Of a stretch of DNA of 64,000 bases, positions 10,190 through 45,039 are shown one piece after another; the stretch's first letter is position 1; each line of letters begins with the position of its first letter. This stretch comes from Lachnospiraceae bacterium Zagget2 (GTDB taxonomy: Bacteria > Bacillota > Clostridia > Lachnospirales > Lachnospiraceae): contig MSHD01000033.1 in the NCBI GenBank assembly GCA_001941045.1, forward strand, positions 30,880-94,879. The letters run 5' to 3'. The position numbers and the translations under genes were made by a program. The notes beneath the pieces are model-generated. The model had not been told where the DNA came from, did not search any database, and saw only the letters and a list, made by a program, of their open reading frames with translations.

Positions 10190-11312
10190 ATGGTAGAACT
10201 GGATCAGTTTAAATATACACTGAACAGCTACGCAAAACCGATGACAGAACTGAGGGATTCACTTTGACCTCGCGTCAAAGGAGCTCAGAATCGAGGAACT
10301 GGAAAGAGAGATGGAAGCTCCCGGCTACTGGGACCGGGCAGAACAGTCACAGGAGGGCATGAAAGAGCTGAACCGTCTCAAGTCAGAAAAAGAAAAATTT
10401 GAGAGTCTTCAGAGCCAGTACGAAGACATCGAGACCCTGATCGAGATGGGCTATGAGGAGGACGATGAGTCTCTGATCCCGGAGATACAGGAGAATCTGG
10501 AGCAGTTCACGGAGCAGTTCGAGTCCATGCGGATCAGGACCCTGCTGTCCGGTGAGTATGACGCCTGCAATGCGATCCTGAAGCTGAACGCGGGCGCGGG
10601 CGGCACGGAGAGCTGTGACTGGGCCGGGATGCTGTACCGGATGTACACGCGCTGGGCCGAGCGAAAAGGATTTTCCGTAGAAGTGCTGGACTATCTCGAC
10701 GGCGATGAGGCAGGAATCAAGTCTGTGACCTTCCAGGTGAATGGCGAGAATGCCTACGGCTATCTGAAGTCCGAGAAAGGGGTACACCGGCTGGTGCGTA
10801 TTTCCCCGTTCAATGCACAGGGCAAGCGACAGACGTCCTTCGTGTCACTGGATGTGATGCCGGATATTGAGGGAGAGATTGATGTTGAGATCAATCCGGA
10901 TGATCTGAAGATCGACACCTATCGATCGAGCGGCGCAGGCGGACAGCACATTAATAAGACTTCGTCGGCGATCCGCATCACGCATCTGCCGACAGGCATT
11001 GTGGTGCAGTGTCAGAATGAGCGTTCGCAGTTCCAGAACAAGGACAAGGCGATGCAGATGCTGAAGGCAAAGCTCTATATTCTGGAGCAGCAGAAGCAGG
11101 CGGAGAAGCTTTCGGGTATTCAGGGAGAACTCAGCGATATCGCCTGGGGCAATCAGATCCGCTCTTATGTCATGCAGCCCTACACGCTGGTCAAAGATCA
11201 CCGGACCGGCGAGGAATTCAGCAATGTGAATGCAGTTATGGACGGCAAGATTGACACATTTATCAATGCGTATCTGAAATGGATCAGTTTGAGTCCGGAA
11301 GAACAAAAATAG
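10190..11312 (+). CDS. prfB: Peptide chain release factor 2, programmed +1 frameshift: join(10190..10264,10266..11312)
   Basis: MVELDQFKYTLNSYAKPMTELRDSL then CTT TGA C at 10262-10268 (UGA is codon 26); +1 frame continues DLASKELRIEELEREMEAPGYW...; GGQHINKTSSAIRITH. Confidence 0.95.
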
Positions 11313-16576: not shown

Positions 16577-16640
16577 GCTCGACGCGAAGTTAGCTGCTTT
16601 CTTAAGCTGCCGTTTCCGGCAGCTTTTTTTCAAAAAAGAA

Positions 16641-16669
16641 AAACCAAATGGGAATTCGATACGTCTGAC
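16641..16669 (+). promoter_or_regulatory. ECF-like island promoter P1: AAACC-N16-CGTCTGAC
   Basis: AAACC 16641-16645; CGTC at 16662; upstream of CDS 16702. Confidence 0.75.
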
Positions 16670-18717: not shown

Positions 18718-18766
18718 GATATCAGGCCTAAAGCTGCCGTTTCCGGAAGCTTTTTTCAAAAAAGAA

Positions 18767-18795
18767 AAACCAAAAGACGTTTTTCCCCGTCTTAT
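18767..18795 (+). promoter_or_regulatory. ECF-like island promoter P2: AAACC-N16-CGTCTTAT
   Basis: AAACC 18767-18771; CGTC 18788-18791. Confidence 0.8.
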
Positions 18796-23988: not shown

Positions 23989-25710
23989 ATGCGTGAAGAG
24001 CTGAGCAAAAGCAGCAGAGATCAGATTCTGCGCAGACTGAATGAGGAGAGATTGCCATTCCCGCGCTTTGCGTTTGCGAGGGAAGAAGAGGGTACCGGTA
24101 TGCGTGAGCTAGGGAGGGGAAGCTTCGGCATCACCTATGTGGGAGAGGGCAGAGATTCCCTCTCAGGCCTCACGCGCGCGGTCAAGGTACTCGGATTTCA
24201 GCAGGAAATAGACCCTGCCGAGATTCCGAAGATCAAAAGAGAGATCGAGCTACAGATAAGGCTTTTCTCCCGCTGTGGGCGCTATATTGTCAATATATTT
24301 GACGCGGGAAGTCTGTATGTCAGGCTGGATGAGGATGGTTCGCTGCTCAAGATTGTCGATCCGGCCGGGGCTGACATCGAATAGAAAGAGGACTATCGCT
24401 ATCTTCAGTTCATCAGCATGGAAAAGCTTGAGCCGGTGCTCCGGGGACACAGCCAGGACCCGCAGCTGACGATCGACGCGCTGCGAAGCAGTGACGAGGA
24501 CGAGGTGATAAAATTTGCGCTGCACATCGGGAGCGCACTGGAGGCGGCGCATCAGGAGAACATTCTGCACAGGGATATCAAGCTGGAAAATATTTTTTAT
24601 TCGGAGAGTACGGACAGCTATAAGCTGGGAGACTTCGGCCTGGCGAAGCTGGCCGAGGGAGGGACGACCAAGAGCAGGGTGGGAACCGGACCCTATCAGG
24701 CGCCTGAGGTGGATAATGTACATCGGTATGATCAGAGGGCGGATATCTACTCCTTCGGAATTACCCTCTACCGCCTGCTCAACGAGCTGAACTTTCCGGG
24801 TTCCGGACCGCTGAAATTCAGCAGAGAGGTCAAGCACAACCGGGACAGTCCGCTCCCGGAGCCGGCGCATGGATCCGACAGACTGAAACGGATCGTGTGC
24901 AGAGCCTGCAGCTTCCGACCGGAGGAACGTTACCAGACGATGACGGAGTTGCTGGACGCGCTTCGGACAGTGGACGCCACGTCGCGGCCGGAGCCGGAGG
25001 AGATCCTGATCAGTCGCTATGAGGCGTCGGAAAAGAAAGCGGAGCCGGAGGAGACGCTGAGCGTCGGAACAGGGGGCGCGGAGGAGGAAGGAAGAGAGCA
25101 GGAGCTTCTTAAGCATCTGCAAACATACGAGCAGTAGGCAGGACGCTGGAAGGAGGAAAGAAAGGAGCAGGAGGAAGCGCGGCGCCAGGAAGAGGAACGA
25201 GAGAGGAAAGAGAAAGAAGCGCGCCAGGAAGAGAGGAGAAAGCAGGAGGAGGAAGCGCGGCGCTTGAGAGAGGAGAAAAGAGAGCGGGAGGAAGAAGTGC
25301 GCCGGAAGGAGTGGAGAAAGCTGAAGGAAGAGGAGTTCTACAAAGAGAGAAGAGAGCAGCGGAAGGGTCGGCGCATCTGCGGCGCGTTGATGTTTGCGGC
25401 AGCGCTGATCGAGCTTTTCCTTCTGGTCGGTCATGAGACGCTGGGGATTTCCGGGCCTCTGGTGGGCGAGAATCTGTACTGGCTTGTCCTTCTGATCGGC
25501 TATGCCGGCCTGGTCCTGTATGTGAAGGACTTCAAAGCCACAGCGCTCAATGCGCATCTTGTAGTAAGCGTTCCCTTTGTGATGATTGTTTTGGGAATTA
25601 TTTTGTCTGTAAACAGTATCGTTAAGATTGTGGACGTGCCGGATATCCTGACGCAGCTGCATTTCGCGCGTACCGGACTGGTCAGTCTGCTGATTTTCTT
25701 TATCTGTTAG
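23989..25710 (+). pseudogene. Ser/Thr kinase with charged coiled-coil linker and C-terminal TM segments, interrupted by two in-frame TAG codons (24382-24384, 25135-25137)
   Basis: Segments 23989-24384, 24385-25137 and 25138-25710 are in one frame; LGRGSFGITYVGEGR, HRDIKLENIFY, GDFGLAKLAEGG; no frameshift over about 574 codons. Confidence 0.75.
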
Positions 25711-25733: not shown

Positions 25734-26471
25734 ATGGATCGAGAGAAAAAAGAGCAACTGATGGATGCGTTTCGCCGCTTTCAGATGGGCGAGAACGAGG
25801 CCTTTAACGAGGTGTACAGCCTGACGCAGAAGCTTGTACGCTACGTCGCCTGGTCTGTCTGCCATGATTGGGAACTGGCGGAGGACGCGCTGCAGGAGAC
25901 GTATATTTCCATCATACAGTATAAGGACAGGCTGGAAAATCTGGAGGCGATCGAGGGCTGGATCGGAAGAATCGCGGGCAATAAGGTGCGGGATATGTGG
26001 AGAAAAAATGCAAAGACGACGCTGCTCTCTGAGGAGGAGCAGTTCCTGTTCGACGAGCAGGAGGAGCCGGATGTGCTGAAGCTGCCGTGGGAGGCCGCGG
26101 ACAGCAGGGAGACGCAGCGGCTGATCCGCGACATCCTGGATCGGCTCCCCGAGGAGCAACGGCTCGTGCTGACGGAGTGCGAGTACAATGGCCTGAAGGT
26201 GCGCGAGGTGGCGGAATACTATGGCGTCCCGGAGGGAACGGTGAAGACCTGGCGCAGGAAAGCGAAGGCCGCGGTGAAGGCGGAGGTGGAGCGCCTGTAC
26301 CGGGAAGAGGATACGAGGCTCTACACGGTGCTCGAGGATATGGCGATCTACTGGGCGATCCATTTTGCAGTTCTGGAGACGGAGGAGAGAGAGATGCCGG
26401 CGAAGGTCGCGCAGTGCCTTGCATCTCTGGAGAGGGAAAAGACGCCGGAGCGGGAGCGTCTGCTGCACTGA
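25734..26471 (+). CDS. ECF-type RNA polymerase sigma factor with C-terminal extension
   Basis: Region 2 (AFNEVYSLTQKLVRYVAWSVCHDWELAEDALQETYISIIQY, WIGRIAGNKVRDMWRK), region 4 (LDRLPEEQRLVLTECEYNGLKVREVAEYYGVPEGTVKTWRRKAKAAVK). Confidence 0.9.
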   Translation: MDREKKEQLMDAFRRFQMGENEAFNEVYSLTQKLVRYVAWSVCHDWELAEDALQETYISIIQYKDRLENLEAIEGWIGRIAGNKVRDMWRKNAKTTLLSEEEQFLFDEQEEPDVLKLPWEAADSRETQRLIRDILDRLPEEQRLVLTECEYNGLKVREVAEYYGVPEGTVKTWRRKAKAAVKAEVERLYREEDTRLYTVLEDMAIYWAIHFAVLETEEREMPAKVAQCLASLEREKTPERERLLH

Positions 26472-26496
26472 CAGGAAGGCTCAGGAGGGAAAAAGC

Positions 26497-29400
26497 GTGG
26501 AACAGTCAAGGCTTGCGAAAAAAATGGAGAGCTACGCGCAGCTTTATGTGCGAAGCGACCGGGGAGGGGCGCTTCCGACGCCCCTGTCGGAGGGCTATAT
26601 TCTGTATGTGATCATGCGCTTCGCAGATCCGGAACCGCTGAAGGAGGATCTGGCTGTCTGCGGGGCGGAGGAACTCGACGGACTTCGCAGACGGCTCGCG
26701 GAAGACAGACCCTTTACCGTGACGAGACTCGAATTTCGGGAAATGCTGAATAAAGCGCCCGCCCCGGGCAGGGAGGACGACGAGCGCTACAGGCGCGTGA
26801 TCGTGAGGATGGCGCAGAAAAAGGCTGTGGAGCGGGGGCAGGAGAAGGTCACCATCGACTGTTATCTTGACGCGATCCTGGGAAATCCGGACGCGCTGGT
26901 GCGGAGGATTCTGCGCCGCTCTGTGCCGACTCCCGTTCCCGCGCCTGCGTCTGTACCGCTCCCCGATATGGGATGCATGAAAGCGTTTTTTTCCTTTTCC
27001 GGCGAAAAGCAGAGGCTCCGGAAAAGCCTGCGCGGACGGATCATCGGGCAGGACGAGGCCGTGGACGCTTTTGCCGATGGAATCCTCGCCTCCCGGATGT
27101 TTCAGGAGGAGGGAAATGTGAGGCCGAAGGGGCTTTTCGTTTTCGCTGGCCCTCCCGGCGTGGGGAAGACTCTGCTGGCTGTGGAGGGCGCGCGGGAACT
27201 CGGCATACCGGTCCGGCGTTTTGACATGAGCGAGTACGCCCACAGCGAGTCCTATGTGGGGCTGACTGGGAGCGATAAGGTGTGGAAGGGTGCGGAGAGA
27301 GGCAGCCTGACCTCCTTCGTGGAGGACTGCGCCGAACAGAAGAAGGAGTGCTTTCTGATTTTTGATGAGATTGAGAAGGCGCACCCGAACACGATCCATT
27401 TGTTCCTGCAGATTCTCGACGCGGGGCGGCTGACGGACGCTTTCACGAAGCGGACCGTCTCCTTTGGCAATTCCTTTATTGTGTTTACGACGAATGCGGG
27501 CAGGAGCCTGTATGAGGAGGGAAAGCAGCCGGCGAAGAACCTGGCGAAATCCGTGATCATGGACGCGCTGCGAAACGATATCAATCCCGCGACGGGCGAA
27601 GCCTTTTTCCCGGAAGCGATCTGCTCCCGGCTCGGCACAGGCTGTGTCGCGATGTTCCGGCATTTGTCGGTCTACGATCTTGTCTGCATCGAGGTCGCGG
27701 AGATGAATCGCTACGCGCGGATGTTTCAGCGCAGCTATGGGCCGGAGGTCGTTGTAGACGAGCAGATTCCCTTCCTGCTTCTCTTGCGCCTCGGCGGGGA
27801 GTGCGACGCGAGGACCTTTCGTGCGGAGGGAGAGCGCTTCATCAAAAACGAACTTTTCGCGCTGGCAGAGACAGCCAGCGAGTCGAAGGTCGTGTGCTCC
27901 CTGAAAAAGAATAACCGGATCCATTTCAAGGTACACGAAAACAGCCGCCGGGAGCTCGCGCGCCTGCTCAGCGGCACGCAGGAAAAGGAGAGCATCCTGC
28001 TGGTTTCCGAGAACAGCGGGAACCTGGAGGAATGCGGGAAGCTGCTGGAGGGCGGCGCGTACAATATCGTCCCCGCCGACAGCTACCGCAGAGCTGCGGA
28101 AATCATAAGGGAGGGGGAGATCTGCCCGGCCGTGCTGCTCGTGGATCTGCCCGACGAGGAGATCCTGGAGGGGACGAGGCGTTTTGTCGACCGTTCGCCG
28201 CTTCGCGCAAGCTTTTATGATTCCTTCCTCCATTTTCTGGAAAACGCGGCTGCGGAGCTGCCCGGGACGTCGATCTATGTCCTGATGTTTGAGGGCTGCT
28301 ATGACCCCGCTGACCTGGAGCGGGAGCTCTCCTGCCGGGGTGTGGCGGGTCTGATCGACGTGCGGAACCGAAGACAGATCGCGGCGGAGATCTACGGCTG
28401 TATCGAGAGAAACCGCATGGGCCAGATCGCGCACCGCTTTGCCCGGGAGAAGAAGGGGTTGTCCTTTACGACCTCACCGAACGATGAGAACGGGGAGCTG
28501 GCGATCCGCCTGCGCGGCTTTCGGGTGGAGACGCTGGTGTCGGGGAGTGACAGCGACGCGCTGCTCTCTGACGAGCGGATGCCCTCGGTTACCTTCGACG
28601 ACTACATCGGTGGTGAAACGGTTAAAAATGAAGTGAGGGCCTTTGTCAGCTACCTTAAAAACCCGGGGAAATACAGGAACAGGGGTGATGCGCAGCCTCG
28701 TGGGATCCTGCTGTATGGCCCGCCCGGTAAGGGCAAGACCTTTTTCGCGAAGGCGTTGGCGCATGAGGCCGACGTGCCTTTTTTCCCGGCCAATGGCAGC
28801 AGCTTTATCGATCAGTACGCAGGAAGCGACCCGAAGGCGATCCGCGAGCTCTTCCACAAGGCCCGCAAGTATGCGCCGTCCATCATTTTCATCGATGAGA
28901 TCGACGCGATCGCGGGGAGGAGGACCGGCGAGTACCGGGCGGCGGAGGAGACGTTGAATATGCTCCTGTCAGAGCTGGACGGCTTTGACGCGGACGGCGG
29001 CAGGCCGGTCTTCTTCGTCGCCGCGACGAACTATGGGATAGACCAGAATTCCGCAACGGCGCTGGATCCGGCGCTGGTCCGGAGGTTTACAAAGACGATC
29101 TATGTGGGCGAGCCGTCCTGGGAGGAGCGTCGGGAATTTATCAGAAGGAGCGTCGAAAAATATCCGGGTGCTTTGAACGCTGCGGAGCTGGACGGACTGG
29201 CGGCCAGAAGTGCCGGACTGAACTACAGTGGCCTTAAGAATATCGTGGAGGCTGCTGCGCGCGAAGCGCAGAACCGCGAGGCTGCGGTCACGGCGAAGCT
29301 GCTGGATGACGCGTTAGAAACCTGGCTCTTCGGGGAGAAGAAGGTCTGGGACGCGGTGGCTATGGAGCGCAGCGCCTGGCACGAGGCCGGCCATGCCTTA

Positions 29401-29883
29401 ATCTACCGGAACGCGGGCCGTACGCCGGAGTATATCACGATCGAGGCGCGGGGTAATTACGGCGGCTATGTCATGTCAGCGGAGCCTGATGAGGGAACGG
29501 TGACGAGGGAGGCGCTTCGCACGCAGATCCGGGCCAGCCTGGCCGGCAGGGCGGCGGAGCTGCTCCGCTATGGGAAGGAGGCGGGGCTCTCCGTTGGTCC
29601 GGCCGAGGACTTCCGGCAGGCGGGAGCTCTGATCAGTGCCTATGTCTGCGAATACGGGATGGACGAGCGGCTGGGTCTGATCTATGTGCCGGATTTGCAG
29701 CATCCGCCGGAGGAGGTCCGGAAGCGGATCAACGAGCTGATGAATGAATTTCTGGAGGAGACGATTCATGAGCTCGAGGGCGTGAAGGACGCGCTGCAGC
29801 GGCTCGCCGATGCGCTGCTTCGGAAAAACAGGATGAATGCCCGCGAGATCGAGGAGGTTCTGGGGGAAGCGAAGCATGTATGA
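26497..29883 (+). CDS. Fusion ATPase-protease: ClpA/B-type AAA+ - receiver-like linker - FtsH-type AAA+ - M41 metalloprotease
   Basis: GTG start at 26497 with RBS AGGAGGGA; Walker A GPPGVGKT and GPPGKGKT; Walker B LIFDEIEKAHP and IIFIDEIDAIAG; HEAGH zinc site; PAEDFRQAG third-ligand region. Confidence 0.88.
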   Translation: MEQSRLAKKMESYAQLYVRSDRGGALPTPLSEGYILYVIMRFADPEPLKEDLAVCGAEELDGLRRRLAEDRPFTVTRLEFREMLNKAPAPGREDDERYRRVIVRMAQKKAVERGQEKVTIDCYLDAILGNPDALVRRILRRSVPTPVPAPASVPLPDMGCMKAFFSFSGEKQRLRKSLRGRIIGQDEAVDAFADGILASRMFQEEGNVRPKGLFVFAGPPGVGKTLLAVEGARELGIPVRRFDMSEYAHSESYVGLTGSDKVWKGAERGSLTSFVEDCAEQKKECFLIFDEIEKAHPNTIHLFLQILDAGRLTDAFTKRTVSFGNSFIVFTTNAGRSLYEEGKQPAKNLAKSVIMDALRNDINPATGEAFFPEAICSRLGTGCVAMFRHLSVYDLVCIEVAEMNRYARMFQRSYGPEVVVDEQIPFLLLLRLGGECDARTFRAEGERFIKNELFALAETASESKVVCSLKKNNRIHFKVHENSRRELARLLSGTQEKESILLVSENSGNLEECGKLLEGGAYNIVPADSYRRAAEIIREGEICPAVLLVDLPDEEILEGTRRFVDRSPLRASFYDSFLHFLENAAAELPGTSIYVLMFEGCYDPADLERELSCRGVAGLIDVRNRRQIAAEIYGCIERNRMGQIAHRFAREKKGLSFTTSPNDENGELAIRLRGFRVETLVSGSDSDALLSDERMPSVTFDDYIGGETVKNEVRAFVSYLKNPGKYRNRGDAQPRGILLYGPPGKGKTFFAKALAHEADVPFFPANGSSFIDQYAGSDPKAIRELFHKARKYAPSIIFIDEIDAIAGRRTGEYRAAEETLNMLLSELDGFDADGGRPVFFVAATNYGIDQNSATALDPALVRRFTKTIYVGEPSWEERREFIRRSVEKYPGALNAAELDGLAARSAGLNYSGLKNIVEAAAREAQNREAAVTAKLLDDALETWLFGEKKVWDAVAMERSAWHEAGHALIYRNAGRTPEYITIEARGNYGGYVMSAEPDEGTVTREALRTQIRASLAGRAAELLRYGKEAGLSVGPAEDFRQAGALISAYVCEYGMDERLGLIYVPDLQHPPEEVRKRINELMNEFLEETIHELEGVKDALQRLADALLRKNRMNAREIEEVLGEAKHV

Positions 29884-44917: not shown

Positions 44918-45039
44918 CAGCTTTTCATAGTGTGGCAAAAGATGTATAATGAAAACCAGATTTCCAGCAGCCGACACATTTTTGGGGAGGCCGAGGTGGA
45001 GGGCAGATCGTCAACGGATTTTCGGATGGAGGAGAAAGC

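Follow-up and report, generated by a model that had tools for sequence, protein, structure and literature searches.

The kinase gene at positions 23989-25710 of the window, the 64,000-nucleotide stretch of Lachnospiraceae bacterium Zagget2 DNA that was analyzed, is most readily explained as a gene that was inactivated very recently and that belongs to a tandem family of eukaryote-like Ser/Thr kinases encoded on a lineage-specific insert, a reading given a probability of about three in four. Translation of the region gives 574 codons in which the only in-frame stops are codons 132, 383 and 574, the last being the terminator and a TAG as well, and bears out the original prediction of two internal TAG codons in a frame free of frameshifts, together with the predicted plan of a kinase domain, a charged region and transmembrane segments. 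The Pfam Pkinase profile (PF00069) matches residues 38-322 with an E-value of 1e-31, and this match extends across the first TAG, which separates the N-lobe of the kinase from the C-lobe. The frame contains the glycine-rich loop GRGSFG and the motifs AVK, HRDIKLEN, DFG and APE, so that the Hanks-type set (the Lys of AxK, HRD, DFG and APE) is complete when the frame is read across the first TAG, whereas without readthrough these motifs are divided between separate products. At the C-terminal end, hydrophobic segments follow the Lys/Glu/Arg-rich linker. The G+C content at the three codon positions is 0.60/0.41/0.60 upstream of the first TAG, 0.62/0.39/0.73 between the TAGs and 0.63/0.34/0.66 downstream of the second, and in all three segments the pattern matches that of intact neighboring genes; combined with the Pkinase match, this indicates real coding on either side of both TAGs, each of which occupies a variable position between structural elements.

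Table 1. Coordinates of the interrupted kinase gene, its paralogues and the surrounding insert within the window
Start	End	Strand	Feature	Remarks
16577	45027	.	Segment of ~28.4 kb between addB and addA	Missing from the closest relative; holds the whole kinase cluster
20055	22712	+	Paralogous kinase, intact, with the kinase domain at the C-terminus	50% identical to the 23989 product
22702	23961	+	Intact frame, Sel1 repeats behind a kinase-like domain	33% identical to the 23989 product
23989	25710	+	Ser/Thr protein kinase paralogue	Kinase domain followed by a K/E/R-rich linker and a transmembrane tail; two in-frame TAG codons
24382	24384	+	First TAG, codon 132	Variable loop directly 5' of the hinge strand LQFISMEKL
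24418	25137	+	Possible restart ORF, 239 aa	C-lobe only; no Shine-Dalgarno sequence
25135	25137	+	Second TAG, codon 383	Lies past the kinase domain and ahead of the K/E/R-rich region
25264	25710	+	Possible TTG restart ORF, 148 aa	Transmembrane tail and the last part of the charged region
29837	31312	+	Intact paralogous kinase with Sel1 repeats	45% identical to the 23989 product
31305	32879	+	Intact sister kinase with transmembrane tail	53% identical to the 23989 product; terminator TAG

Neither the four paralogues in the window nor any of 24 relatives among the matches listed contains an internal stop. One of these paralogues, the Sel1 protein encoded immediately upstream, lacks the Asp residues of the HRD and DFG motifs in its kinase-like domain and is a predicted pseudokinase member of the array. 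As to the comparison with sister strains proposed in the original prediction, no orthologue of the 23989 kinase was found in the 16 other genomes of the genus, and the more distant relatives carry no stop. Within the genus, a single genome (G010) has a match at an E-value of 1e-25 or better, with 36% identity. In a draw of 397 genomes of the family, 17, including the genome under study, have matches at 1e-30 or better, all of them without internal stops, and the best relative outside the genome itself is 43% identical; an order-level draw added one further relative, also uninterrupted. Searches of phage records and species-representative contigs returned weak matches to the kinase domain and no orthologue, and no match was obtained among plasmids and viral contigs. 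Thus, as is expected of a pseudogene, a stop that precedes the catalytic loop is present in a gene whose relatives and paralogues are uninterrupted.

A new result of the analysis is that the kinase cluster appears, from comparison of genomes, to sit on a lineage-specific segment inserted between addB and addA. These genes are separated by 28.4 kb in the window (16576 to 45040) and directly joined in the closest genome (G001), as well as in G016 and G013; the flanks of the insert are 95-96% identical to G001 at the DNA level up to position 16578 and from position 45028. A short GGAGGAGAA(G/A) motif is present at both edges, and a near-identical terminator-like hairpin occurs twice at the left edge (16601-16648 and 18728-18774). 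At this junction addB has altered last codons of its own and addA a separate ribosome-binding site, features that a real insertion would be expected to show, and the separation is more probably genuine than a misassembly. Two other genomes (G011, contig C80, and G012, contig C47) contain a different insert of ~1.8 kb at the same junction, one edge of which resembles positions 44936-44993 of the window, and the junction is a possible insertion hotspot. Besides the kinases, the insert encodes a PP2C phosphatase, a sigma-70-family factor, GrpE- and Hsp70-like, Clp-protease-like and VirD4/TraG-like proteins, and at 26365-29883 a protein of 1172 amino acids that combines two AAA modules with an FtsH-type M41 peptidase domain at its C-terminus. 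This last protein is rare, with one other match at an E-value of 1e-120 or better (37% identity) in 391 genomes drawn from the class. No integrase was recognized among the insert proteins scanned. The segment is recently acquired and probably dispensable, and a fresh nonsense change in a lineage-specific, redundant paralogue on such an island is unsurprising.

In the proposed course of inactivation, release factor 1 (RF1) would terminate translation at codon 132 and leave a fragment of 131 residues comprising the ATP-binding N-lobe and no catalytic loop, and the locus would yield no active kinase. The three catalytically complete paralogues encoded alongside probably cover for the lost enzyme, so that its loss would be tolerated. 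The second nonsense change, at codon 383, may have occurred before or after the one at codon 132.

The substitution pattern of the frame is compatible with such a recent origin. Past the first TAG, none of the 40 columns conserved among relatives has changed in the C-lobe, and the sole change at the 46 relative-conserved columns of the frame is V49T; the conservation after the first TAG equals that of the intact paralogues. Relative-rate tests are mostly flat, with a faster query in two of eight comparisons, both involving the 31305 kinase. That no relaxation of constraint is visible fits a young lesion and would fit a still-translated gene equally. The original prediction had also attached weight to the two stops being of the same type. 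Both are indeed TAG, but enumeration of every single substitution in the sense codons of the frame shows that this counts for less than implied: depending on the transition bias, 3.0-4.4% of the substitutions create a stop, and TAG makes up 56-62% of these nonsense changes (~3.7% and 59%, respectively, at kappa 2), so that roughly a third of all pairs of nonsense changes would consist of two TAGs. If an indel-to-substitution ratio of 0.05-0.1 is assumed, a second nonsense change, and not a frameshift, would be the next disabling lesion after the first in ~30-50% of cases. Some 19 missense changes (0.70/0.037) are expected between the first and the second nonsense change, ~1.5 of them at the 46 conserved columns, where one is observed. 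Given the TAG-heavy nonsense spectrum, two TAGs without a frameshift are unremarkable for a young nonsense pseudogene, and the suggestion of two recent nonsense changes is supported by this spectrum, the intact remainder of the frame and the uninterrupted relatives and paralogues.

The main rival to a recent pseudogene, although an unlikely one, is an error of base calling or consensus, or a mixture of strains in the draft assembly, in which case the gene would be intact in the living population. The assembly is fragmented (66 contigs, with an estimated contamination of 3.35%), the remainder of the frame is well constrained, and in-frame stops are found even in the housekeeping gene addB in two of 17 genomes of the genus, which gives a base rate of broken frames for such draft assemblies. 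The addB breaks are a TGA in G010 (C12:85963-89346) and a break with TAA in G008 (C23:3074-6413). However, two separate substitution-type errors within one gene are atypical of short-read assemblies, in which errors are more often homopolymer indels or wrong joins.

The original prediction offered conditional amber readthrough as the alternative to nonsense mutation and suggested a check for a suppressor tRNA(CUA) or pyl genes; this check, run on the genome, found neither a CUA-anticodon tRNA among the detected tRNA genes nor PylS. A profile search identified a full-length RF1 above the curated cut-off, and the second match of this search, at ~10269-11276 within the window, presumably corresponds to the related RF2 gene. 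The PylS model reached no more than 23 bits, below its cut-off of 178, and weak background matches to this model are present in nearly all control genomes too. Among the 49 tRNA genes detected with RF00005, whose anticodons were read by ARAGORN, none has the anticodon CTA; Ile(GAT) and Ala(TGC) tRNAs were also not found, so the assembly lacks a few tRNA genes, which makes this negative less than absolute. At 16904-17142 of contig G000:C20, three extra tRNA genes with low scores (Glu, Tyr and Arg) form a cluster that is possibly of mobile-element origin. Of the three stop codons, TAG is the one used least in the window, ending five of the 42 other genes, including the sister kinase 31305, in addition to the interrupted gene itself. 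Behind four of these five terminal TAGs and that of the 23989 gene, the frame closes within 2-26 codons; the longer open frame past the terminal TAG of gene 37688 continues into the next gene, which is in the same frame. The RNA downstream of each internal TAG folds no better than shuffled sequences (z +1.09 and +0.95). The PylS score and the lack of a CTA anticodon among the detected tRNA genes speak against pyrrolysine decoding of the two TAGs, and the ordinary genes ending in TAG and the intact RF1 speak against a reassignment of TAG similar to code 15.

Some ribosomes could still read both TAGs as sense codons by means of a near-cognate Gln or Tyr tRNA and produce a little full-length kinase. 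The location of both stops at variable inter-element positions and the full constraint on the downstream part of the kinase agree with this explanation, as do reports that in-frame stops are widespread in bacteria with dN/dS below 1 (PMC7918605), although most of these stops were found to be short-lived, at the level of polymorphism within populations (PMC7918605). It is nevertheless quite improbable, given the intact RF1, the failure to find a suppressor tRNA or PylS, the TAG terminators next door, the unremarkable folding 3' of each TAG and the fact that no relative shares a stop there, and two serial stops would multiply an already low efficiency. Regulated readthrough is unlikely, and there is very little chance that the pair of TAGs throttles translation, with low-level near-cognate readthrough supplying trace amounts of the full-length membrane kinase from this island-borne array and keeping a potentially toxic enzyme nearly silent. 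If readthrough were shown, the gene would represent a rare instance of a kinase throttled twice without a suppressor tRNA.

An ATG from which translation might restart, as the original prediction had noted, does exist at 24418, but a working C-lobe product is unsupported. This codon corresponds to M144, at the kinase hinge, and its product would lack the ATP-binding N-lobe; with neither this lobe nor a ribosome-binding site, the restart is not expected to give a working kinase. It is likewise highly doubtful that the locus is a split gene, in which stop-restart translation would generate three functional polypeptides, namely the N-lobe, the C-lobe from this ATG and a charged and transmembrane part from TTG 25264. 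The restart codons lie ~34 and 127 bases past the stops and the TTG is preceded by a purine-rich stretch, but this stretch, inside GAG/AAG repeats, is just the Glu/Lys/Arg codon repeat, the ATG at the hinge has no Shine-Dalgarno sequence, and no split arrangement was found among the relatives.

As it stands, the 23989 locus carries little weight: it is either an error or a young pseudogene, and it belongs to a redundant gene family. More useful is the recognition of the addB-addA junction as a variable insertion site in the genus, occupied here by a kinase/phosphatase/chaperone/protease cluster. A literature search on kinase/Sel1 clusters found nothing. The full kinase fold signature is shared by the 23989 frame with Hanks-type Ser/Thr kinases (PF00069; e.g., PknB/Stk1), from which the frame differs in being broken by two TAGs. 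The frame does not encode PknB itself: the best NCBIfam model, PknB_PASTA_kin, scores 127.8 bits where the cut-off is 450, and no PASTA domains are detected by Pfam. Among the phage-defence kinases in PADLOC, the kinase domain resembles MAD6 of the MADS system (E 5e-40) and PD-T4-6 (E 5e-34), the matches being confined to the generic kinase domain. A MADS system is not supported, with a score of 82.8 bits for the MAD6 NCBIfam model against a cut-off of 460 and no complete system recognized; the only sign of a MADS partner gene among the island proteins scanned was a weak match of the AAA protein to mad8. With pyrrolysine (amber) decoding the locus shares the presence of TAG in a reading frame that is open apart from it, but unlike in that system, the genome has RF1, PylS and tRNA-CUA were not found, and there is no unusual downstream structure. 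A parallel is provided by recent nonsense pseudogenes and transient in-frame stops, which are reported to be widespread in bacterial genes, mostly short-lived and over-represented in genes of the mobilome (PMC7918605). Although it differs in holding two stops, the 23989 gene fits this pattern in its lesions of the single-base type, its otherwise intact frame and its island context.
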